Below are positions 44,874 to 56,684 of a stretch of 64,000 nt of DNA, piece by piece (positions within the stretch are counted from its first letter, which is position 1; each line of letters begins with the position of its first letter). The DNA is taken from the NCBI RefSeq assembly GCF_014646015.1, contig NZ_BMMQ01000005.1, forward strand, positions 186,001-250,000. The letters run 5' to 3'. The position numbers and the translations under genes are program-made. This DNA comes from Microbacterium nanhaiense (GTDB lineage: Bacteria > Actinomycetota > Actinomycetes > Actinomycetales > Microbacteriaceae). Below the pieces are notes generated by a model. It was given only the letters and a program-made list of their open reading frames with translations. It ran no database searches and was not told the origin of the DNA.

Positions 44874-45575
44874 TCAGTCGAAGGCGAGCACTCCGGCGAG
44901 CGCGAACATCATGACCGCGATGACCGCGTCGAGCACGCGCCAGGACCTCGGCGAGCGCAACCAGCGGGCCGCGTAGCGGGCGGCGAAGGTGAGGAACGCG
45001 AACCAGATCGCGCTGCCGAGGATCGCGCCGACCGCGAAGAACCACCGGGCGTCGCCGTAGTTCGTCGAGATGGATCCGAGCAGCAGCACCGTGTCGAGGT
45101 AGGTGTGCGGGTTGAGCCAGGTGATCGCGATGCAGGTCAGCACGGCCGGGACGAGCGCCGTGCGCGTCCTCGTGGCGGCGGGAGCGACGAGCGTCGCGGT
45201 CCCGGATCCGCCGGGTGCCGGAGCGGGCGCCGGTGCGGCCGGCGCCGCGCCCGCGTCGATCGCGGATCCGCCTCGGAAGACGCGGATTGCGGCGAGCAGA
45301 CCGTATCCGCTCAGGAACGCAACGCCCGCCCAGCGGGCGACGTCGAAGAGCCACGGCACCTGTTCGATGACGACGCCGAAGCCGCCGACGCCGGCGGAGA
45401 TGAGGATGACGTCGCTCGCGAGGCACACGGCGGCGAGGATGACCACGTGGGATCGGCCGCCCTGCGAGTGCTTGATGCCCTCGCGGAGGAGGAAAACGTT
45501 CTGCGCGCCGGGTGCGACGATGAGCGAGAGGCAGAGTCCGATACCGGCGAGCAGGGCAGTGAGCATGGCTTCCAT
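44874..45575 (-). CDS. lysE: LysE/ArgO family amino acid exporter
   Basis: A 233-residue exporter of basic amino acids. G-I-G-L-C-L-S-L-I-V-A-P-G-A-Q-N near residue 11 and FLLREGIKHSQ near residue 28 are the LysE signature, and AITWLNPHTYLDTVLLLG near residue 148 is the second conserved block. Six helices are visible, with an alanine/proline-rich cytoplasmic loop (residues about 108-130) unusually long for the family. The ATG at 45575 is used; an ATG three codons later is also possible. The divergent lysG should induce it in response to lysine or arginine. Confidence 0.93.
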   Translation of the reverse strand: MEAMLTALLAGIGLCLSLIVAPGAQNVFLLREGIKHSQGGRSHVVILAAVCLASDVILISAGVGGFGVVIEQVPWLFDVARWAGVAFLSGYGLLAAIRVFRGGSAIDAGAAPAAPAPAPAPGGSGTATLVAPAATRTRTALVPAVLTCIAITWLNPHTYLDTVLLLGSISTNYGDARWFFAVGAILGSAIWFAFLTFAARYAARWLRSPRSWRVLDAVIAVMMFALAGVLAFD

Positions 45576-45641
45576 CGTGCTCGTCGACGTGCGATGATCA
45601 AAAGCAAATGAGGATGAACGAAACCTCGTGAAGGAACGCTT
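45576..45641. promoter_or_regulatory. lysE-lysG divergent control region
   Basis: A 66-nt gap between the divergent exporter and its LysR-type regulator. It contains an AT-rich stretch (ATGATCAAAAGCAAATGAG, 45593-45611) of the kind LysR proteins bind. Exact boxes cannot be placed. Confidence 0.4.
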
Positions 45642-46526
45642 ATGTGGATTTCGCCGGAGCTGGCCGAGACGGTAGCGACGATCGTCGACGAGGGATCCTT
45701 CGAACAGGCGGCGAAGCGCCTGCGCATCTCGCCGTCGGCGGTGAGTCAGCGCCTGCGGACGCTCGAGTCGCAACTCGGTCGCGTCCTCATCATCCGCTCA
45801 CGCCCCATCCGAGCGACGACCGACGGCGCGACGGTGGTGCGCCTCGCGCGCCAATACGCCGCGGTCGCGCACGAGGCGGGGGTGTCGCTCGGCCTCGAGC
45901 GGCAGGAGCGCATGCACGTGCCGATCGCGGTGAACGCCGACTCGCTCGCGACCTGGCTGCTGCCGGCGCTCGAGGCCGTCACGCGCGAGCACGACGTGAC
46001 CTTCGAACTGCTCCGCGAGGACGAGGCGCGAACGGCGACGCTACTGGAATCCGGATCCGCTCTCGCGGCGATCACGTCGGAGCGACGGCCGATTGCGGGG
46101 TGCTCGGTGACGGCGCTCGGCTTCACGGAGTACATCGCCGTGGCCACGCCCGCCTTCGTGGCCCGCTGGTTCCCGAACGGGATCACGCGGGACGCGCTCG
46201 CCGCGGCGCCCGCGATCGAGTTCGACCGATCGGACGACGTGCAGTCCAATTGGCTGCGCGCGCTCGGCGTGGATCCCGCGCTCGCACCGCGCCACTATGT
46301 TCCCGCCTCGGAGGACTACGCGGCGGCGGTGCGCCTCAGCATGGGATGGGGCATGCTGCCGCCCGCGCAGGCGCAGGCATCGCTCGAGCGGGGCACCCTG
46401 ACACGAATCGGCGGCCACGACGTCAGGGAGCCGCTGTACTGGCAGCAGTGGAACATCGATTCCTCTGTCCTGCTCGCGATCCGCGAGCAGGTGGTGAGTC
46501 ACGCGAGGGCCGCGCTCGCGGCGTGA
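45642..46526 (+). CDS. lysG: LysR family regulator, LysG/ArgP type
   Basis: A 294-residue LysR regulator. The helix-turn-helix is GSFEQAAKRLRISPSAVSQR near residues 18-37, followed by the linker helix and the ligand domain. ArgP/LysG traits are L-A-E-T-V-A-T-I-V-D-E-G-S-F at the start, VAVNADSLATWLLPAL-like spacing (IAVNADSLATWLLPAL near residue 93), and the divergent lysE partner. AAGGAA precedes the ATG. It is convergent with the methyltransferase gene, with 10 nt between stops. Confidence 0.93.
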   Translation: MWISPELAETVATIVDEGSFEQAAKRLRISPSAVSQRLRTLESQLGRVLIIRSRPIRATTDGATVVRLARQYAAVAHEAGVSLGLERQERMHVPIAVNADSLATWLLPALEAVTREHDVTFELLREDEARTATLLESGSALAAITSERRPIAGCSVTALGFTEYIAVATPAFVARWFPNGITRDALAAAPAIEFDRSDDVQSNWLRALGVDPALAPRHYVPASEDYAAAVRLSMGWGMLPPAQAQASLERGTLTRIGGHDVREPLYWQQWNIDSSVLLAIREQVVSHARAALAA

Positions 46527-47223: not shown

Positions 47224-48711
47224 TTGCCCGAAACCACAGGCACCGACGACGCCGTCGACCGGATCATCGCCCGAGACGAAGCACACAGCAACTCGCGCGT
47301 GTTCGGCACGGCGCAGGCATTGCAGGACACCTCTACCGTCTACGACGACGGCCAGCAGTGGGATCTCGAGGATCGCCACTCGCTGCGCCGCGTCGTGGGC
47401 CTCTCGACCGAGCTCGAAGACATCACCGAGGTCGAGTACCGCCAGGTGCGCATGGAGAACGTCGTCCTCGTCGGCGTCTACCGCGCCGGCACGCTCGAGG
47501 ACGCGGAGAACTCGCTGCAGGAGCTCGCGGCGCTCGCCGAGACAGCCGGATCCGTCGTGCTCGACGGCGTGCTGCAGCGGCGCCCGAACCCGGATCCCGC
47601 GACCTACATCGGTCGCGGAAAGGCGGAAGAACTCAAGCAGATCGTCGACTCCGTCGGCGCCGACACCGTCATCGCCGACACCGAGCTCGCGCCCAGCCAG
47701 CGGCGCGCGCTCGAGGACGTCATCAAGGTCAAGGTCATCGACCGCACGGCCGTGATTCTCGACATCTTCGCGCAGCACGCGAAGACCCGCGAGGGCAAGG
47801 CGCAGGTCGAGCTCGCCCAGCTCGAGTACCTCCTCCCGCGTCTGCGCGGATGGGGTGACTCGATGAGCCGTCAGGCGGGCGGACAGGTCGGTGCCGCGGG
47901 CGCCGGTATGGGATCCCGCGGGCCGGGTGAGACCAAGATCGAGCTCGACCGCCGCCGCATCCGCGACCGGATGGCGATGCTCCGCCGTCAGATCCGCAGT
48001 TTCGCGCCCGCGCGGGACGCCAAGCGTGCCGAGCGCAGCCGCAACAAGATCCCGTCCGTCGCGATCGCCGGTTACACGAACGCGGGCAAGTCGAGTCTGC
48101 TCAACCGGCTCACGAACGCGGGCGTGCTCGTCGAGAACGCGCTCTTCGCGACCCTCGACTCGACGGTGCGGCGCACCGAGACGGCGGACGGACGCGTGTT
48201 CACGCTCGCGGACACCGTCGGCTTCGTGCGCAACCTGCCGCACCAGCTCGTGGAGGCGTTCCGCTCGACCCTCGAGGAGGTCGCCTCGGCCGACCTGATC
48301 GTGCACGTCGTCGACGGCAGTCACCCCGACCCCGCCGGTCAGATCCAGACGGTGCGAGATGTGCTCGGCGAGGTCGAGGCGCGCGCGATTCCCGAGATCA
48401 TCGTGTTCAACAAGATGGATCTCGTCTCCGACGACGACCGTCTCGTGCTCGCGGGGCTCGCGCCGAAGGCCGTCTTCGTCTCGAGCCGCACCGGCGAGGG
48501 CATCGCGGAACTGCGGCGAATCGTCGAGGACGCGCTGCCGGTGCCCGACGAGGAGATCACGGCGCTCGTGCCCTACAGCCGCGGCGACCTGATTTCTCAG
48601 ATCCACGAGGAGGGGCAGTTCCTCGAGCAGCGTCACGAGGCGGGCGGCACCTTCGTGCACGCCCGCGTGCACGCGCGACTCGCGGCGGAACTGCGGTCCT
48701 ACCCGGCCTGA
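47224..48711 (+). CDS. hflX: Ribosome-splitting GTPase HflX
   Basis: A 495-residue GTPase that binds and rescues or splits stalled ribosomes. The N-terminal domain includes P-A-T-Y-I-G-R-G-K-A near residue 125 and the glycine-rich GGQVGAAGAGMGSRGPGE near 218. The G domain has G1 GYTNAGKSSLLN near residue 282, G3 DTVGFV near 330, and G4 N-K-M-D near 398. A small C-terminal domain follows. The start is a TTG with GAAAGG 6 nt upstream. The N-terminal 60 residues are acidic and longer than in enterobacterial HflX. Confidence 0.96.
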   Translation: MPETTGTDDAVDRIIARDEAHSNSRVFGTAQALQDTSTVYDDGQQWDLEDRHSLRRVVGLSTELEDITEVEYRQVRMENVVLVGVYRAGTLEDAENSLQELAALAETAGSVVLDGVLQRRPNPDPATYIGRGKAEELKQIVDSVGADTVIADTELAPSQRRALEDVIKVKVIDRTAVILDIFAQHAKTREGKAQVELAQLEYLLPRLRGWGDSMSRQAGGQVGAAGAGMGSRGPGETKIELDRRRIRDRMAMLRRQIRSFAPARDAKRAERSRNKIPSVAIAGYTNAGKSSLLNRLTNAGVLVENALFATLDSTVRRTETADGRVFTLADTVGFVRNLPHQLVEAFRSTLEEVASADLIVHVVDGSHPDPAGQIQTVRDVLGEVEARAIPEIIVFNKMDLVSDDDRLVLAGLAPKAVFVSSRTGEGIAELRRIVEDALPVPDEEITALVPYSRGDLISQIHEEGQFLEQRHEAGGTFVHARVHARLAAELRSYPA

Positions 48712-48760: not shown

Positions 48761-51700
48761 GTGCGGCCGAGCGGGCCGCCTCCCCGGCACCTGAGGACTC
48801 AGCCCACGATGCAGCACACCTTCGACCGTTCGCACGCCGCACCCGAACCGCGTACCCTTCTCGACATCCTCCGCGCGTCGGCGCGTGCGCACCCGTCGGC
48901 GTCGGCGCTCGAGGACGAACGGGGAGCGCTGAGCTATGAGGAGCTGGTCGCGCTCGTCGAACAGACCGCCAGCCGTCTCACGGCGCTCGGTGTGCGGCGG
49001 GGCGACCGGGTGGGCGTGCGCATGCCCTCCGGCGAGCGCGAGCTGTACCTCGCGATCCTCGGCGTCATGGCGGCCGGCGCGGCGTACGTGCCCGTTGACG
49101 CCGACGACCCGCAGGAGCGCGCCGACCTCGTGTTCGGCGAGGCGGGCGTGCGCGGTGTCATCCGCGACGGCGGGCTCTTCGTCCCGCACGGGGACGCCGT
49201 CGCGGGAGACCTGTTCGCCGAGGAGGCGCCGTCGGCCGTCGCCGACGAGCCCACGCCCTCCGACGACGCGTGGATCATCTTCACCTCGGGATCGACCGGC
49301 GTGCCGAAGGGCGTCGCCGTGGCGCACCGTTCGGCCGCGGCCTTCGTCGACGCGGAGGCTCGCATGTTCCTCCAGGACGCGCCGCTCGGGCCCGGCGACC
49401 GCGTGCTCGCCGGTCTGTCCGTCGCGTTCGACGCGTCCTGTGAAGAGATGTGGCTCGCATGGCGGCACTCCGCCTGCCTGGTGCCCGCCCCGCGCGCGCT
49501 CGTGCGCTCGGGCGAAGACCTCGGGCCCTGGCTCGTGGGCCACGGGATCACGGTCGTCTCGACGGTGCCGACGCTCGCGGCGCTCTGGCCCGAGGACGCA
49601 ATCGAGAACCTGCGCCTGCTGATCTTCGGCGGCGAGGCGCTGCCTCCGGAGCTGTCCAATCGCCTGATCGGCGCGGAGCGCGAGGTCTGGAACACCTACG
49701 GCCCGACGGAGGCGACGGTCGTCGCGTGCGCGGCGAAGATGGACGGCACCGCGCCGATCCGCATCGGCCTTCCCCTGGACGGGTGGGAGCTCGCGGTCGT
49801 CGATGCCGACGGCAACCGGGTCGCCGAGGGCGAGGTCGGAGAGCTGATCATCGGCGGCGTCGGCCTCGCCCGCTATCTCGACCCCGCGAAGGACGCCGAG
49901 AAGTACGCCCCGATGCCCTCGCTCGGGTGGTCTCGCGCCTACCGTTCCGGCGACCTCGTGCGCCTCGAAGAGGCAGGGCTCGTCTTTCAGGGCCGCGCCG
50001 ACGACCAGGTGAAGATCGGCGGGCGCCGCATCGAACTGGGCGAGGTCGAGGCGGCGCTGCAGAACCTCTCGGCCGTGACGGCCGCCACGGTCGCGGTGCG
50101 GCACTCCGCCGGCGGCACGCCGATGCTCGTCGGCTACGTCGTTCCCTCCGGCGACGCCTTCGACCGGGGCGCGGCCCGCGCGGAGCTCGCCGAGTCGCTC
50201 CCGGCCCCGCTGATCCCCGTACTCGCCGTCATGGACGAGCTGCCGGTGCGCACCTCCGGCAAGGTCGACAAGGCCGCGCTGCCATGGCCACTCCCCGACA
50301 CGGGCGAAGAGGCATCGACGCTGTCCGGCACAGCCGCCTGGCTCGCCGAGCAGTGGGCGGCCGTGTTGGGGATCCGTCCGCACGACGAAAAGGCCGACTT
50401 CTTCGAGCTCGGCGGCGGATCGCTCGCGGCCGCGCAGCTCGTGTCCCGGATCCGTGCCCGCGCCGCCGAGTTCACGATGGCCGACGTCTACGACCTCCCG
50501 AGGCTCGGGAAGATGGCGGAGGCGATCGGCGAGGAGGAGGGCGCGTCCGGCGAGATCAACTACCACTCGTCGAACCCCACCCCGCGGCGAATGCAGTGGG
50601 TGCAGACGATCCTCGGGGTTCCGCTGTTCATTCTCACCGGAGCCCGCTGGATGACGTGGCTCCTCACGGCGAGCTGGATCCTGCACCGCGTGCCGGGCTT
50701 CGAGCTGCTGCCGGCGGCGCCCGGATGGGTCGTCGTCGCGGGCCTGGTGCTCTTCGTCACCCCGTTCGGCCGGATGGGCATCTCGGCGCTCGCCGCGCGG
50801 ATCCTGCTCGCCGGCGTGCGACCGGGCGACTACCCGCGCGGCGGCGCCGTCCATCTGCGTCTCTGGCTGGCGGAGCAGATCGCGCACCAGGTCGACCCCG
50901 TCGGGCTCGTCGGCGCGCCCTGGGTGTCGTACTACGCCCGCGCGCTCGGCGCGACGATCGGCCGCGACGTGAACCTGCACACGCTCCCGCCCGTCACGGG
51001 CTTCCTCGACGTGCGCGACGGCGCGTCGATCGAGCCGGAGGTCGACCTGTCGGGCATCTGGATCGACGGCGACACGGTGCGCGTCGGCGGGATCCAGATC
51101 GGCGCCGGCGCGACCGTGGGGTCGCGGAGCACGCTCGCCCCCGGAGCGAAGATCGGTCGCGGCGCGGAGGTGGCGCCCGGATCGGCCGTGTTCGGCCGCG
51201 TGAAGGCCGGGCAGCGCTGGGCGGGTTCGCCGGCCGTGCGCGTGGGCGCGGCCGCCGAGGAGGCACCGCGCCCTCCCGCGCCCACGCGGTGGCTGTGGGC
51301 GTACGGGGCGTCGTCGGTTGTGCTCGGGCTGTTGCCGTTCATCGCCTTCGCCGCCGGCGGGCTCGTGCTTGCCGCGCGGATCCGCGGCGCGGATGGCCTC
51401 GTCGACGCGATCCCCGCGGCGCTCGCGTGGCTCGTGCCGGCGGTGCTCGTCACCGGCGCGGTGTTCGCGGCGCTCGTGGTCGCGCTCGTGCGGCTCCTCG
51501 CGATCGGGCTCGCGCCCGGCACCTATCCGGTGCGCAGCCGCGTCGCGTGGCAGGCGTGGACGACCGAGCGGCTGCTCGACTCCTCGCGCACGCTACTGTT
51601 CCCGATCTACTCGAGCCTCTTCACCGCGACGTGGCTGCGCCTCCTGGGTGCCCGCGTGGGGCGCGATGTGGAGGCCTCGACGGTGCTGCTGATCCCGTCG

Positions 51701-52702
51701 CTCACGCGGATCGACGACGGCGCATTCCTCGCCGACGACACGATGGTCGCCACGTACGAGCTGCGGGGCGGCTGGATGTACGTCGCGAAGGCGCGGATCG
51801 GCAAGCGCGCCTTCCTCGGCAACTCGGGGCTTGCCGCGGCCGGCCACACCGTGCCGAAGAACTCGCTCGTCGCCGTGCTCTCGGTCGCGCCCGACAAGGC
51901 GAAGTCCGGATCCAGTTGGCTCGGCTCGCCCGCGGTGCGGTTGCGCCGGGTCGTGAACGAGGCGGATCTGGAACGCACCTACCGGCCACGACGCGGGCTG
52001 CGCGTTGCGCGCACGCTGTGGGAGCTGTGCCGCATCGTTCCCGTTCTTGTGACGTGCGCGCTCGGGATCGCGGTGATGGGGGTGCTGACCGCGATGATCG
52101 ACGCGTGGGGTGTCCTCGCCGCTTGTCTCCTCTCGGGCGTCGTCATGATCGCGGCGGGCGCCGTGGCCGCCGCGATCGCGACCATCGCGAAATGGGCGTT
52201 CGTGGGCCGGATCCGCGCGGGCGAGCATCCGCTCTGGTCGAGCTTCGTGTGGCGCACGGAGGTCTCCGACGTCTTCACCGAGATGGTCGCGGCCCCCTGG
52301 TTCGCCAACGCGGCGGCCGGAACCCCCGCCCTCGCGATGTGGCTGCGGTCGCTCGGCGCGAAGATCGGAAAGGGCGTCTGGACCGACAGCTACTGGTTGC
52401 CCGAACCGGATCTCGTCACGCTCGGCGACGGGGCGACGGTGAACCGCGGATGTGTGGTTCAGACGCATTTGTTCCATGATCGAGTGATGAGTATCGATAC
52501 CGTGGTCCTCGAAAAGGGCGCGACGCTCGGCCCGCACAGCGTCATCCTGCCGGCCGCCACGATCGGGGCGGACGCGACCGTGGGCCCCGCGTCGCTCGTC
52601 ATGCGCGGCGAATCCGTGCCCGTCGGCAGCCGGTGGAGCGGAAACCCGATCGGTCCCTGGCGCGCCGTCAAGGTCCGCGCCTATCAGGAGGACGCCGAAT
52701 GA
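48761..52702 (+). CDS. Pls/PosA-type membrane NRPS, candidate poly-lysine synthetase
   Basis: A 1313-residue single-module, membrane-bound peptide synthetase with the layout of epsilon-poly-lysine synthetase. Residues about 30-530 are an adenylation domain (IIFTSGSTGVPKG near 171, NTYGPTEAT near 313, YRSGDLV, GRADDQVKIGGRR, and the A10 lysine in TSGKVDK). A carrier domain follows with F-F-E-L-G-G-G-S-L near 548. Then three membrane pairs (about 613-683, 843-920, 1083-1150) alternate with three hexapeptide/left-handed-helix domains (about 726-826, 960-1066, 1196-1310) that stand in for condensation domains. There is no thioesterase. A hand-read specificity code is D-A-E-S-I-G-T-V-V-K, close to lysine codes. 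The leaderless GTG is chosen; an ATG at 48809 is the alternative. ATGA couples it to the peptidase gene. Confidence 0.9.
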   Translation: MRPSGPPPRHLRTQPTMQHTFDRSHAAPEPRTLLDILRASARAHPSASALEDERGALSYEELVALVEQTASRLTALGVRRGDRVGVRMPSGERELYLAILGVMAAGAAYVPVDADDPQERADLVFGEAGVRGVIRDGGLFVPHGDAVAGDLFAEEAPSAVADEPTPSDDAWIIFTSGSTGVPKGVAVAHRSAAAFVDAEARMFLQDAPLGPGDRVLAGLSVAFDASCEEMWLAWRHSACLVPAPRALVRSGEDLGPWLVGHGITVVSTVPTLAALWPEDAIENLRLLIFGGEALPPELSNRLIGAEREVWNTYGPTEATVVACAAKMDGTAPIRIGLPLDGWELAVVDADGNRVAEGEVGELIIGGVGLARYLDPAKDAEKYAPMPSLGWSRAYRSGDLVRLEEAGLVFQGRADDQVKIGGRRIELGEVEAALQNLSAVTAATVAVRHSAGGTPMLVGYVVPSGDAFDRGAARAELAESLPAPLIPVLAVMDELPVRTSGKVDKAALPWPLPDTGEEASTLSGTAAWLAEQWAAVLGIRPHDEKADFFELGGGSLAAAQLVSRIRARAAEFTMADVYDLPRLGKMAEAIGEEEGASGEINYHSSNPTPRRMQWVQTILGVPLFILTGARWMTWLLTASWILHRVPGFELLPAAPGWVVVAGLVLFVTPFGRMGISALAARILLAGVRPGDYPRGGAVHLRLWLAEQIAHQVDPVGLVGAPWVSYYARALGATIGRDVNLHTLPPVTGFLDVRDGASIEPEVDLSGIWIDGDTVRVGGIQIGAGATVGSRSTLAPGAKIGRGAEVAPGSAVFGRVKAGQRWAGSPAVRVGAAAEEAPRPPAPTRWLWAYGASSVVLGLLPFIAFAAGGLVLAARIRGADGLVDAIPAALAWLVPAVLVTGAVFAALVVALVRLLAIGLAPGTYPVRSRVAWQAWTTERLLDSSRTLLFPIYSSLFTATWLRLLGARVGRDVEASTVLLIPSLTRIDDGAFLADDTMVATYELRGGWMYVAKARIGKRAFLGNSGLAAAGHTVPKNSLVAVLSVAPDKAKSGSSWLGSPAVRLRRVVNEADLERTYRPRRGLRVARTLWELCRIVPVLVTCALGIAVMGVLTAMIDAWGVLAACLLSGVVMIAAGAVAAAIATIAKWAFVGRIRAGEHPLWSSFVWRTEVSDVFTEMVAAPWFANAAAGTPALAMWLRSLGAKIGKGVWTDSYWLPEPDLVTLGDGATVNRGCVVQTHLFHDRVMSIDTVVLEKGATLGPHSVILPAATIGADATVGPASLVMRGESVPVGSRWSGNPIGPWRAVKVRAYQEDAE

Positions 52703-54057
52703 GGTCCCGCGCGCGCCGCTGGGGCGGGGACGACTACACGCCCGACACGGGAGACACGCGCTACCAGACCCGGCACGTCGAGCTCGACCTCGCCTACAAG
52801 GTCGCGAACAACCGGCTCTCCGGCCGCGCGGAGATCACGGGTGAGGCGCGCGAGGCGACGGCGTCGATCGCCTTCGACCTCACGCATCTGAAGGCGAGCA
52901 GCGTGAGGGTCGCCGGCGACAAGCGTGCGCGTTTCGAGCATCGTCACGGCCGGCTCGAGGTGATGTTCTCCCGCGAGCTCGCGCCGGGCGATGAGTTCGT
53001 CGTCACGATCGACTACGCGGGCTCACCCAAGCCGCGGCGCTCGCCGTGGGGGACGCTGGGGTGGGAAGAGCTCGAGGACGGCGCCACCGTGGCGTCGCAG
53101 CCCAACGGCGCCTCGACGTGGTTCCCCTGCAACGACCACCCGCGGGACAAGGCGAGCTACACGATCCGGATCCAGACGGAGACGCTTTACGACGTCGTCG
53201 CCGGTCGACGCACCGAGAACCGCCCGCGCGGGGGCACGCGGGCGTGGACGTTCCGGCTCGATCAGCCGACCGCCGCCTACCTGGTGCCGCTGCAGATCGG
53301 CCGCTACACGAGCGAGTCCGTGACGCTCGATTCCGTGCCGGCGGAGCTGCACTATCCGCCGATGATCGCGTCTCGGGTGCGCCACGACTTCCGGAGGCTC
53401 TCCGAGATGATGGCTCTCTTCCAGTCGTCGTACGGCCCGTACCCGTTTGCCGACTACACCGTGGTGATCACCGCGGACGAGCTGGAGATTCCGCTCGAGG
53501 CGCAGGGGAGCGCGGTCTTCGGCGCGAACCTGGTTGACGGCAAGGGCACCTACGAGCGCCTCGTGGCTCACGAGCTGGCGCACCAGTGGTTCGGTAACGC
53601 CGTGGGCCTCGCCGCGTGGCGTGATATCTGGTTGAACGAGGGCCCGGCCTGCTACGCGGAGTGGATCTGGTCGGAGGCCTCGGGAGGCGATACGGCGCAT
53701 GCGCTCGCATTGGCCCATTACGCGCGGCTCGCGGAGAAGGACCAGGATCTGGTGCTCGCGGATCCGGGGGCGGAGCGCATGTTCGACGACCGCGTCTACA
53801 AGCGCGGTGCGCTCGCGCTCCACGCCCTCCGGCTGACGATCGGTGACGAGGCCTTCTTCGAGCTGCTGCGCGCATGGACGTCGCGGCACGGCAACGGCAC
53901 CGCGACGACCGCCGACTTCGTCAGGTTGGCCGAGGAGGTGTCCGGACAGAACCTCGGCGAGTTCTTCGAGGCGTGGCTATCGCAGGAGCGGCTGCCGGAG
54001 CTGCCGGCCACGGACCTTCCCGATACGCCGGCGTCCGACCTCGGGGTCGAGGTCTGA
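52699..54057 (+). CDS. M1 family metallopeptidase
   Basis: A 452-residue zinc aminopeptidase-like protein. The N-terminal saddle domain is residues 1 to about 200. The zinc site H-E-L-A-H-Q-W-F-G-N, with the downstream W-L-N-E-G-P-A, gives the full H-E-x2-H-x18-E near residues 296-319. The usual G-x-M-E-N substrate motif is not recognisable; the aligned segment reads I-P-L-E-A-Q-G. The C-terminal helical domain of large M1 enzymes is missing, so it is a short form. No signal peptide. ATGA coupling to the synthetase suggests it trims, degrades or gives resistance to the polymer. Confidence 0.92.
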   Translation: MRSRARRWGGDDYTPDTGDTRYQTRHVELDLAYKVANNRLSGRAEITGEAREATASIAFDLTHLKASSVRVAGDKRARFEHRHGRLEVMFSRELAPGDEFVVTIDYAGSPKPRRSPWGTLGWEELEDGATVASQPNGASTWFPCNDHPRDKASYTIRIQTETLYDVVAGRRTENRPRGGTRAWTFRLDQPTAAYLVPLQIGRYTSESVTLDSVPAELHYPPMIASRVRHDFRRLSEMMALFQSSYGPYPFADYTVVITADELEIPLEAQGSAVFGANLVDGKGTYERLVAHELAHQWFGNAVGLAAWRDIWLNEGPACYAEWIWSEASGGDTAHALALAHYARLAEKDQDLVLADPGAERMFDDRVYKRGALALHALRLTIGDEAFFELLRAWTSRHGNGTATTADFVRLAEEVSGQNLGEFFEAWLSQERLPELPATDLPDTPASDLGVEV

Positions 54058-54068
54058 GGCTGCGGCGG

Positions 54069-54686
54069 TCAGCCCGCGTCGATGAGCGCGAGCGTCGCCG
54101 TGAAGCCCTCGGGGGCACCGGCGTCGAGCAGCCGGAACGAGGCGTCTGAGCCCGGTAGTTGCGCGCGGTCGCCGGCGATACAGATCCGGTCCGGCGGCAG
54201 CCGCAGGCCGCGCCCGTCGGCCTTCGTCGCCGCCTCGATCGCGGTCCAGCGGCGCAGCGTCGGCGGATCCGCGGGGGAGAAGAGGGGCGCAAGCTCCTGC
54301 AGGACCGTATCCGGGTCGCCGCGCTCGAGATCGATGCCGAGCGCGGCGGTACAGTCGAGCGTCGCCCCTGCCGCCACGACGAACGGCTCGCTGTAGCTGA
54401 GACTCAGGACCACCGGGGCGTGGGTCGCGCGCACCGGTCCGTGGTCCGTGCGCCCGCAGCGGCCGCAGCGCGCCTCGACCGCGGGGTCTACGCCGGGAGC
54501 GAGCCGCAGCGTCAGCTCGCGGAGGAGACGGCGGCCCTCGACGAATCCGTCGGCGCGCGGCCCCGGCCCCCAGCGCCGCGCGCGTTCTCGCTCCGGGCCC
54601 GAGAGCCACGGCGTCTCGCCGATCGTCGCGCGACGCCCGGGCGCGACGCGAGAATACGCGACGAGGGCGGGACCGATCTCGATCAT
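54069..54686 (-). CDS. 4'-phosphopantetheinyl transferase (Sfp superfamily)
   Basis: A 205-residue enzyme that would attach the pantetheine arm to the carrier domain of the nearby synthetase. A-L-G-I-D-L-E-R near residue 115 is the magnesium motif. R-W-T-A-I-E-A-A-T-K-A-D-G near residue 145 is the W-x3-E-A-x2-K-A-x-G signature, with Ile in place of the usual Lys before Glu. S-L-S-Y-S near residue 93 replaces the common S-x-S-H-S. Cysteines CGRCG form an unusual C-x2-C. It overlaps the S9 gene (ATGA), so both are on one transcript, and it is convergent with the synthetase operon. Confidence 0.88.
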   Translation of the reverse strand: MIEIGPALVAYSRVAPGRRATIGETPWLSGPERERARRWGPGPRADGFVEGRRLLRELTLRLAPGVDPAVEARCGRCGRTDHGPVRATHAPVVLSLSYSEPFVVAAGATLDCTAALGIDLERGDPDTVLQELAPLFSPADPPTLRRWTAIEAATKADGRGLRLPPDRICIAGDRAQLPGSDASFRLLDAGAPEGFTATLALIDAG

Positions 54687-56671
54687 CGGGCGAGCTCGAG
54701 GCGCGGCACTCCCGGCGTCTCGAACCCCAGCACCTGGCCGAGGAACGACAACTCACTTTCGAAGGAGCGGACGATCGTGTCCGCCTGGCGGAACCCGTGG
54801 CTCTCTCCGTCGAACAGCAGGTAGGCGTGCGGAACTCCGTTCGCGGCGAGGGCGTCGCGAAGCGCCTCGGACTGCGAGGGCGGCACGACGGGATCGTCCG
54901 CGCCCTGCAGGATGAGGAGGGGCGTCTGCAGCCGTTCCGGGTGGGTGAGGGGCGATCGTTCGATGTAGTCCGGCTCTGCCTCGGGCAGCTCTCCGACGAG
55001 CGAGTCGAGGTACCGGGCCTCAAAATCGTGGGTCTCGGCGAGTAGCAGGCGAAGGTCCGCCACGCCGTATCGGCTGATGCCGGCGGCGAAGACATCCGTG
55101 TCGGCGAGCGCGCAGAGCACGGTCCAGCCGCCCGCCGACCCGCCCTTGATCGCGATGCGCCGAGGATCCGCGAGACCCTCCGCGATGAGCCCGTGCACGG
55201 CGGACGCGACGTCCTGCACATCCACGATTCCCCACCCGCCCGCGAGGCGTTCGCGGTAAGCACGGCCATAGCCGGAGGAACCGCCGTAGTTGACATCGAG
55301 AACGCCGATGCCGCGGCTGGTGAAGAACGCCGCGTTCTGCGAGAGGTCGCCCGTCGAATGCCCTGTCGGTCCCCCGTGGACGAGCACGAGAACGGGCGGA
55401 AGCTCGCCCTCGAGGCCGCGCAGCGCGCCGTTCTGGGGCGGGTAGTAGAAGGAATGAACCGGCCCGAGCGAGCCCGCGTAGGTCTTCGGCTCGGCGATCG
55501 AGTGCACGCCCTCCGACAGGTCGACCTCGCCCCCGCGGAGCGGGCGGAGCGAGCGTGCGGAGACGTCGAGCTCCCAGAGGCCACCCGGCACGGTCGCGCC
55601 CGCCCCGGTGAGCAGGGCGCGCCGTCCTCGCACGTCGTGCACCTGCACGTCGCCGGTCAGCGGTGTCTCGAGCTCCGCAACGGCGCCGGACACGGGATCG
55701 ATGAGCATGAGCCGCGCGCGCCCGTTCGTGACGACGGCGATGATGTTCCCATCGTCGAGCGGGGCGTACCAGCGCGAGCCGAGGCTCCAGAGCGGACCGC
55801 CGCTGTCGGCGTCGACGGCGTGGATCGGCTCGGCGGCGGCGTGGGCGAGGCCGTCGTCGAAGCGGATCCGGTGGAGATTCCAGCGTGAGGTCCACGATCG
55901 GTCCGCGCGAGCGGCCGCGGAAGGCGGATCCTGCGCGAACAGGAGTTCGTCCTCGCTCAGCCACTCCGGCTGGAGCGCGGACACGTTCTGGCCGCGCGAG
56001 GCCCGCCGCCCGCCGGCGACGCGCGTCCACTCGGACACCACGCCGTCGGGGCCGAGCGCGCCCACGCGGAGCTCCGCGGCGTCCCAGGGCATGTCGGGGT
56101 GGTCCCACGCGATCCATGCGATGCGGCCCCGGCAGGGCGACGGGTAGGCGAGAAAATCGCTGCCGGCGACGACGACCGTCACAGCCGCAGGATCCTCCGC
56201 ACCGGATCCGTCGACGGGAATCCGGACGATCTCCCGCAGGGGCGTGCCGTGCTCCGCGAGGTGCGTCTCCCGCACCGCCCAGAGCGCGCCCTCCGCCCAC
56301 ACGAGGTCGCCGTGCGCGAGGCGCGGATCCTCCGGCGTCAGCGGCCGGGGCTCGGCGCCCGGTTCGCTGCGGTAAACGCGCTGATCGCGCTGCTCGACGA
56401 ACGCGAACGCATCCCCGTCGAGAGCGACCCACGATCCGCCGCCGTATTCGTGCACCCGCGAGCGGGCGCTCCATGGTGCCGGGAGAACGGGTGTGTCCGA
56501 CGCATCGCGCATGATCGCCGTGCGGCCGCGCTCGGCGGGGACCGACTCGGCCCACCACACCTCGCCGCCCACATACTGCGCGCGCCCGAGCCGGAGAGAA
56601 CCGGTGGGCATGTCGGCGGGACTGATCGGCGAGGGCCAGGAGCCGTAAGGGAGGCGGTCGTCGGTGCTCAT
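54683..56671 (-). CDS. S9 family peptidase (prolyl oligopeptidase-like)
   Basis: A 662-residue serine peptidase. The first about 400 residues form a beta-propeller-like filter (repeated W-x-D/W-S-A segments). The last 250 form an alpha/beta-hydrolase: VLVHGGPTGHS near 405, the nucleophile G-G-S-A-G-G near residue 500, the Asp in LQGADDPVVPPSQ near 590, and the His in FDGESHGF near residue 622. No signal peptide. The ATG at 56671 lies 7 nt after a TAGCGT box; a GTG three codons earlier lies within the promoter spacing. It is the first gene of a two-gene operon with the phosphopantetheinyl transferase. Confidence 0.93.
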   Translation of the reverse strand: MSTDDRLPYGSWPSPISPADMPTGSLRLGRAQYVGGEVWWAESVPAERGRTAIMRDASDTPVLPAPWSARSRVHEYGGGSWVALDGDAFAFVEQRDQRVYRSEPGAEPRPLTPEDPRLAHGDLVWAEGALWAVRETHLAEHGTPLREIVRIPVDGSGAEDPAAVTVVVAGSDFLAYPSPCRGRIAWIAWDHPDMPWDAAELRVGALGPDGVVSEWTRVAGGRRASRGQNVSALQPEWLSEDELLFAQDPPSAAARADRSWTSRWNLHRIRFDDGLAHAAAEPIHAVDADSGGPLWSLGSRWYAPLDDGNIIAVVTNGRARLMLIDPVSGAVAELETPLTGDVQVHDVRGRRALLTGAGATVPGGLWELDVSARSLRPLRGGEVDLSEGVHSIAEPKTYAGSLGPVHSFYYPPQNGALRGLEGELPPVLVLVHGGPTGHSTGDLSQNAAFFTSRGIGVLDVNYGGSSGYGRAYRERLAGGWGIVDVQDVASAVHGLIAEGLADPRRIAIKGGSAGGWTVLCALADTDVFAAGISRYGVADLRLLLAETHDFEARYLDSLVGELPEAEPDYIERSPLTHPERLQTPLLILQGADDPVVPPSQSEALRDALAANGVPHAYLLFDGESHGFRQADTIVRSFESELSFLGQVLGFETPGVPRLELAR

Positions 56672-56678
56672 GTCTCCC

Positions 56679-56684
56679 ACGCTA
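56679..56684 (-). promoter_or_regulatory. -10 box of leaderless S9 peptidase promoter
   Basis: TAGCGT on the minus strand ends 7 nt before the ATG at 56671. Confidence 0.55.

Follow-up and report, generated by a model that had tools for sequence, protein, structure and literature searches.

Epsilon-poly-L-lysine (epsilon-PL) is an approved food preservative, and homologues of its synthetase Pls have been found in Corynebacterium, Brevibacterium, Arthrobacter, Microbacterium and other genera (Jiang et al. 2021, PMC8117764). C. variabile has a peptidase gene in an operon with pls, and expression of its pls in S. coelicolor yielded epsilon-PL (PMC8117764). In S. albulus, pldII was reported to encode an aminopeptidase and to be translationally coupled to pls (PMC9223678), and in 2025 epsilon-PL clusters were described in Microbacterium canaveralium and M. 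jepli (PMC12067966). The same enzyme architecture makes polymers of lysine, ornithine, diaminobutyrate (Dab), diaminopropionate (Dap) and beta-lysine, and position 2 of the substrate code has been read as setting chain length, i.e., Ala for lysine, Met for ornithine and Phe for Dap or Dab (PMC10522769). Here we analyzed a stretch of 64,000 nucleotides from Microbacterium nanhaiense (contig NZ_BMMQ01000005.1; hereafter the window) containing a candidate pls gene. Pls enzymes of Microbacterium and other coryneforms are already known (PMC8117764, PMC12067966), and the window gene is one more. We consider it highly likely that it forms a three-gene cassette for epsilon-PL together with genes for an M1 peptidase and an Sfp-type 4'-phosphopantetheinyl transferase (PPTase). 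New here is this linked, under-annotated PPTase, which is worth a test.

Table 1. Features of the pls locus and its borders, in window positions.
Feature	Positions	Strand	Evidence
pls, Pls/PosA-family non-ribosomal peptide synthetase (NRPS), A - PCP - 3 x [transmembrane (TM) pair + beta-helix]	48761..52702	+	TIGR02353 704.3 bits; 7wew 615.5 bits
Adenylation (A) domain	48872..50092	+	TIGR01733 339.5 bits (cut-off 317.4), residues 58-444; PF00501 215.9 bits, from residue 38
Peptidyl carrier (PCP) domain, LGGGSL with Ser554 (50420-50422)	50339..50527	+	PF00550 44.3 bits, residues 527-589
Membrane condensation region, three TM-helix pairs and three beta-helices (C1-C3)	50600..52651	+	TIGR02353; AlphaFold2 model; Foldseek matches to hexapeptide acyltransferases
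M1-family metallopeptidase (HELAH), PldII-like by position	52699..54057	+	PF01433 95.6 bits; ATGA overlap with pls stop
Predicted divergent Sfp-type PPTase, convergent to peptidase	54069..54686	-	PF01648 18.2 bits; AlphaFold2; fold match 4mrt; linkage
hflX, left border, outside cassette	47224..48711	+	TIGR03156 434 bits
S9 peptidase, right border, outside cassette	54683..56680	-	PF00326 154.6 bits

The synthetase and its coupled peptidase

The pls reading frame runs stop-free over 1313 codons. An earlier note on this DNA had placed a Pls-like frame at these coordinates, and the family assignment agrees: residues 614–1297 aligned to positions 2–695 of the 695-position TIGR02353 model of the Pls/PosA membrane domain, far beyond chance and well above the curated cut-off of 423.1 bits. 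Translation may begin at the ATG at 48809 instead of the GTG at 48761. This is a guess, because the alignments to relatives start at disagreeing places, i.e., at residue 17–18 for the two closest named relatives and at 2–12 or beyond 18 for the others. The gene is intact and under purifying selection, with a ratio of nonsynonymous to synonymous substitutions (dN/dS, NG86) of 0.18 against M. suaedae, similar to that of hflX (0.17).

Adenylation and carrier domains without a thioesterase had been noted before, and this holds: PF00501, PF00550 and PF00132 were the sole family matches, and no condensation or thioesterase family was found at E 0.001, which is the single-module layout of Pls and PosA. 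The carrier serine Ser554 was invariant in 12/12 sequences. An AlphaFold2 model of the C-terminal region, computed from 31 sequences (mean predicted local distance difference test, pLDDT, 79.7), shows three repeats, each made of two paired helices and then beta-helix strands. The six predicted TM helices thus fall into three pairs with a beta-helix after each, as the earlier note had read from the sequence and as the published model of PosA has it (PMC10522769). A simple hydropathy scan flagged five of the six expected helices plus two segments of the A domain. Foldseek matches of the modelled region in the Protein Data Bank (PDB) were hexapeptide acyltransferases and their relatives, weak and local; a sequence search for a solved structure of the region found none, and hexapeptide-repeat proteins matched over parts only.

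The most similar solved chain is the A domain of 'Epsilon-poly-L-lysine synthase' (7wew), aligned over residues 13–513 and presumably from S. albulus, as the comparison in PMC10522769 also implies. The ten pocket residues, placed by conserved motifs rather than by structural alignment to PheA, read DAESIGTVVK (residues 224, 225, 228, 267, 288, 290, 312, 320, 321 and 501, with Lys501 beyond the adenylation stretch of Table 1). The code read by hand in the earlier note was therefore correct, whereas its estimate of about one residue of difference from lysine codes was not: all ten letters are identical to the 7wew segments, including the Ala at position 2 expected of a lysine pocket. The code was the same in 30 other loci of the genus, which were not selected by pocket patterns (31/31 with the window), and in 80 named loci, i.e., the best 80 of 577 relatives (81/81 with the window). 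The latter agreement is partly by construction, because the fetch patterns DDAWIIF and ASCEEMW fix part of the pocket; species of the named and the genus loci may overlap in part.

The M1 peptidase gene is translationally coupled to pls through the ATGA at 52699. Its best solved relative is 6a8z, a 474-residue 'zinc metalloprotease, putative', and its dN/dS against M. suaedae is 0.37 (NG86). An M1 gene follows pls directly in 30/30 sampled genus loci, and an M1 match adjoins pls in 79/80 named loci, the exception (L185) holding just 1.3 kb past pls. In five of these 79 (L197, L200, L207, L213, L223) the mechanically called M1 frame begins 298–2107 bases past pls, and in L218 and L225 it extends far back into pls. 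On a plasmid of Streptomyces sp. NBC_01454 an annotated M1 family metallopeptidase follows pls with a four-base overlap; on that of Kitasatospora sp. NBC_00039 the M1 gene starts 128 bases past pls. According to the available parts of PMC9223678, the zinc of PldII sits at residues forming no M1 motif, and the enzyme is not named an M1 peptidase there; hence our link to PldII rests on position and coupling.

A predicted Sfp-type transferase linked to pls

Convergent to the peptidase gene lies a short frame with no Pfam match at E 0.001. It contains the motifs GIDLE and WTAIEAATK. A PDB sequence search found no PPTase relative, and we therefore searched by fold. The AlphaFold2 model (pLDDT 93.8) matched best to Sfp in complex with coenzyme A (CoA) and carrier protein (4mrt, E 3.8e-8), and every one of the 34 PDB chains found at E ≤ 0.001 was a PPTase. 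The predicted protein thus combines the two-domain Sfp fold with the GID.E and W...EA..K motifs. D119, W147, E151 and K155, which we take to be the Sfp catalytic positions, were invariant in 32 aligned rows, and E121 was kept in at least 90%. Seven homologues from the same position were compared with PF01648: six from other genera scored 42–59 bits, above the cut-off, and one member of the genus 13.4 bits. At 0.51, its dN/dS against M. suaedae (NG86) points to fast evolution of the transferase, a possible reason for the weak Pfam score. Since the evidence is likeness of a modelled fold, it favours a protein that works like an Sfp-type PPTase over membership by the Pfam rule.

Co-occurrence with pls was followed in 60 hand-picked genomes of the genus, of which 30 carry pls and 30 lack it; 59 were single-contig, G077 had two contigs, and some one-contig genomes (e.g., G076, G091, G095, G111) were left out. 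The transferase as single query found a match in 29/30 genomes with pls versus 7/30 without; for G034, G090 and G200, three of these 29, the top match lay elsewhere and the second-best beside pls. A 16-row model (A2), built largely from loci with pls and favouring them, matched 29 of the 30 pls genomes at 111–229 bits and the last one, G135, as two pieces of 71 and 50 bits. Nine of the 30 genomes without pls gave a match with this model, none above 59.5 bits, and 21 gave none. At the loci themselves, the transferase lay within 4 kb of the pls end in 31/31 cases, i.e., in all 30 sampled pls genomes and the window, as scored by a hidden Markov model (HMM) built from 29 of these 31 loci; the same HMM matched none of the 30 loci without pls over about 15 kb around hflX. 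The genomes are related, hence the p-values of Fisher tests of this linkage are too small. The most distant transferase, about 3.9 kb from pls, is the two-piece one of G135 (L105), which may be broken or displaced.

Among the named loci, with orders assumed from the genus names, the transferase was present in 37 of 42 from Micrococcales (41) and Propionibacteriaceae (one metagenome-assembled genome). In 36 of the 37 it is downstream and convergent, and in one (L168) upstream of pls. Within the window genome the Sfp-type model matched this frame alone, and the sole PF01648 match was an AcpS-sized frame of 122 codons. Two carrier domains were found, that of Pls and a 91-codon frame, a small acyl carrier protein. 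The sole Sfp-type PPTase found in the genome hence adjoins its sole NRPS-type carrier domain found, and this neighbour probably switches the synthetase on.

Proposed route to the polymer and rival readings

By analogy to characterised relatives, the Sfp-type transferase would attach the phosphopantetheine arm to Ser554 in the carrier domain of Pls, and the A domain would adenylate L-lysine and load it onto this arm. The membrane domains C1–C3 would then join the lysyl thioester, in repeated rounds of condensation, to the epsilon-amine of lysine or of the chain being built, with no thioesterase involved. The coupled M1 peptidase may trim or degrade the polymer and thereby protect the producer or set chain length. 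From these relatives we infer lysine activation, the epsilon linkage and the polymer: the product of the gene is very probably a membrane enzyme polymerising lysine to epsilon-PL. Family, architecture, pocket and coupled M1 peptidase, all read from the sequence, support the lysine-type Pls proposed in the earlier note.

A Pls/PosA enzyme could also use another diamino acid, i.e., ornithine, Dab, Dap or beta-lysine, and make a different cationic isopeptide, as all these polymers come from the same architecture (PMC10522769). The pocket makes this quite improbable: position 2 holds the Ala of Pls instead of the Met of PosA or the Phe of the Dap and Dab enzymes (PDAP/PDAB), and the codes DGESISVVNK for poly-beta-lysine and DMEHNGTVSK for PosA each differ at four of ten positions, whereas 7wew matches at all ten. 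Compatible with a lysine-activating Pls, and a lesser although appreciable chance, is that it is silent or yields short oligomers used by the cell instead of a secreted antimicrobial. C. variabile carries the gene without detectable epsilon-PL, and the gene gave none in C. glutamicum (PMC8117764); the window strain may therefore be silent too. PosA was moreover reported to give 7–12-mers in vitro. Against this stand the intact frame under purifying selection and the retention of the coupled peptidase.

For the transferase, we regard it as unlikely that it serves another carrier protein and adjoins pls incidentally. It is convergent and outside the pls operon, and it was found in 0/38 Mycobacteriales pls loci, at least five of which hold less than 6 kb past pls, so an adjoining copy is not a general requirement of Pls. 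It was also absent from five of the 42 other named loci (L160, L161, L163, L227 and L198, the last with 1.9 kb past pls). An incidental neighbour would, however, hardly score 111–229 bits in 29/30 pls genomes, with the last in two pieces, and nowhere above 59.5 bits in the 30 genomes without pls; moreover, the sole other carrier domain found is the 91-residue one, which has an AcpS-sized transferase for it. The usual Sfp-type motif is WxxKEA, and the window protein has Ile in place of its Lys; at a loose threshold the protein reached 18.2 bits against PF01648, below the cut-off of 25, and the M1 enzyme is likened to PldII by position and coupling. These points weigh against the three-gene cassette, as do the loci lacking the transferase and the missing product of C. 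variabile.

A LysE exporter gene and a LysG/ArgP regulator gene, divergent and beside dapF at 44874–46526, are lysine-related and some 2.3 kb away from pls, and could be part of the poly-lysine pathway. We rejected this as a general linkage and regard it as very improbable: none of the 30 sampled pls loci of the genus has the pair within the 17 kb fetched, and two genomes without pls (G022, G117) keep it in place beside dapF. The pair is hence not part of the pls locus.

Returning to the three-gene cassette, we lean towards seeing the Micrococcales poly-lysine locus as a mobile unit in which the synthetase and its coupled M1 peptidase are joined by an Sfp-type PPTase of their own, one that diverges fast and that the Pfam cut-off misses in Microbacterium; the absence of a matching transferase may then be one cause of synthetase failure in some foreign hosts. 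Provided that it arms Pls, the transferase could be supplied as a concrete part to get coryneform synthetases working in ordinary hosts, and it would also mark loci of the Micrococcales type.

Genomic site, distribution and comparison with known systems

Four bases (54683–54686) are shared by the stop of the S9 peptidase gene and the start of the transferase gene; the dN/dS of the peptidase against M. suaedae is 0.22 (NG86). Elsewhere among the genus loci sampled, this peptidase does not adjoin the transferase. Among 110 other pls loci (30 genus, 80 named), hflX and S9 peptidase genes flank pls in that of M. suaedae (L166) alone (E ≤ 1e-20). Genomes without pls have hflX with dapF upstream in 30/30 cases and an S9 peptidase after hflX in 13/30 within the fetched region; G022 and G117 have both, and no gene of the cassette separates them. 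Most simply, the cassette would have entered the hflX/S9 site, or moved there, as a unit in the line to this species and M. suaedae. A foreign origin by composition was unsupported, GC content at third codon positions (GC3) being 0.919 for pls versus 0.903 for hflX. The LysE–LysG pair is common to G022, G117 and M. suaedae and occurs in none of the other 28 hflX regions without pls.

Of 366 genomes (species) of the genus, 191 scored above the TIGR02353 cut-off, as did 59 of 150 genomes sampled across the family, from 38 of 85 genera, the window genome included. Two genomes of another genus of the family (g72; G436, G498) have two full matches each and possibly make two polymers. Intermediate scorers (455–516 bits) were considered as a second subfamily and rejected, as the eight checked were mostly split or contig-end genes. 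In G060, G095 and G155 pls appears as two overlapping frames (L049/L050, L042/L054 and L047/L052, respectively), i.e., as pseudogenes or sequencing errors; in G272, G329 and G365 the piece begins at most 65 bases from a contig end. In each of G208 and G242 a single C-terminal piece is present. In a plasmid collection of 72,556 records, 80 matched Pls at E 1e-50; for 25 of these the match covered 80% of the query or more. Five records (H7–H11) are Mycobacterium avium-complex plasmids with Pls/PosA-family genes, four of which name a human host.

A pls-linked transferase is not described in the available parts of PMC4361855, PMC4668381 and PMC8117764, which does not establish its absence from print. 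The terms 'phosphopantethein' and 'PPTase' have no occurrence in the main text of PMC8117764, and the available parts of PMC12067966 mention no PPTase. With Sfp- and PptT-type PPTases (4mrt and 4qjk), the window protein shares the predicted fold (E 3.8e-8 and 1.4e-7, respectively) and the GID.E and W...EA..K motifs. It differs from them in its 14–20% identity (matches at E ≤ 0.001), the Ile in WxxKEA and its sub-cut-off Pfam score. The locus resembles that of the Streptomyces plasmid in the M1 gene overlapping pls, and no Sfp-type PPTase is annotated at the Streptomyces and Kitasatospora plasmid loci, for which the gene table is incomplete. Coryneform Pls enzymes, e.g., that of C. variabile with its peptidase operon, are of the same family and come from the same genus or its neighbours (PMC8117764). 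Like Pls (7wew), the window enzyme has the family layout, the same ten-residue pocket and an A domain matching at 615.5 bits. PosA, the delta-poly-L-ornithine synthetase of Acinetobacter baumannii (8G95–8G98), is described as alike in family and layout; in contrast to the window enzyme, it has the code DMEHNGTVSK, uses ornithine and is encoded in a single-gene operon.

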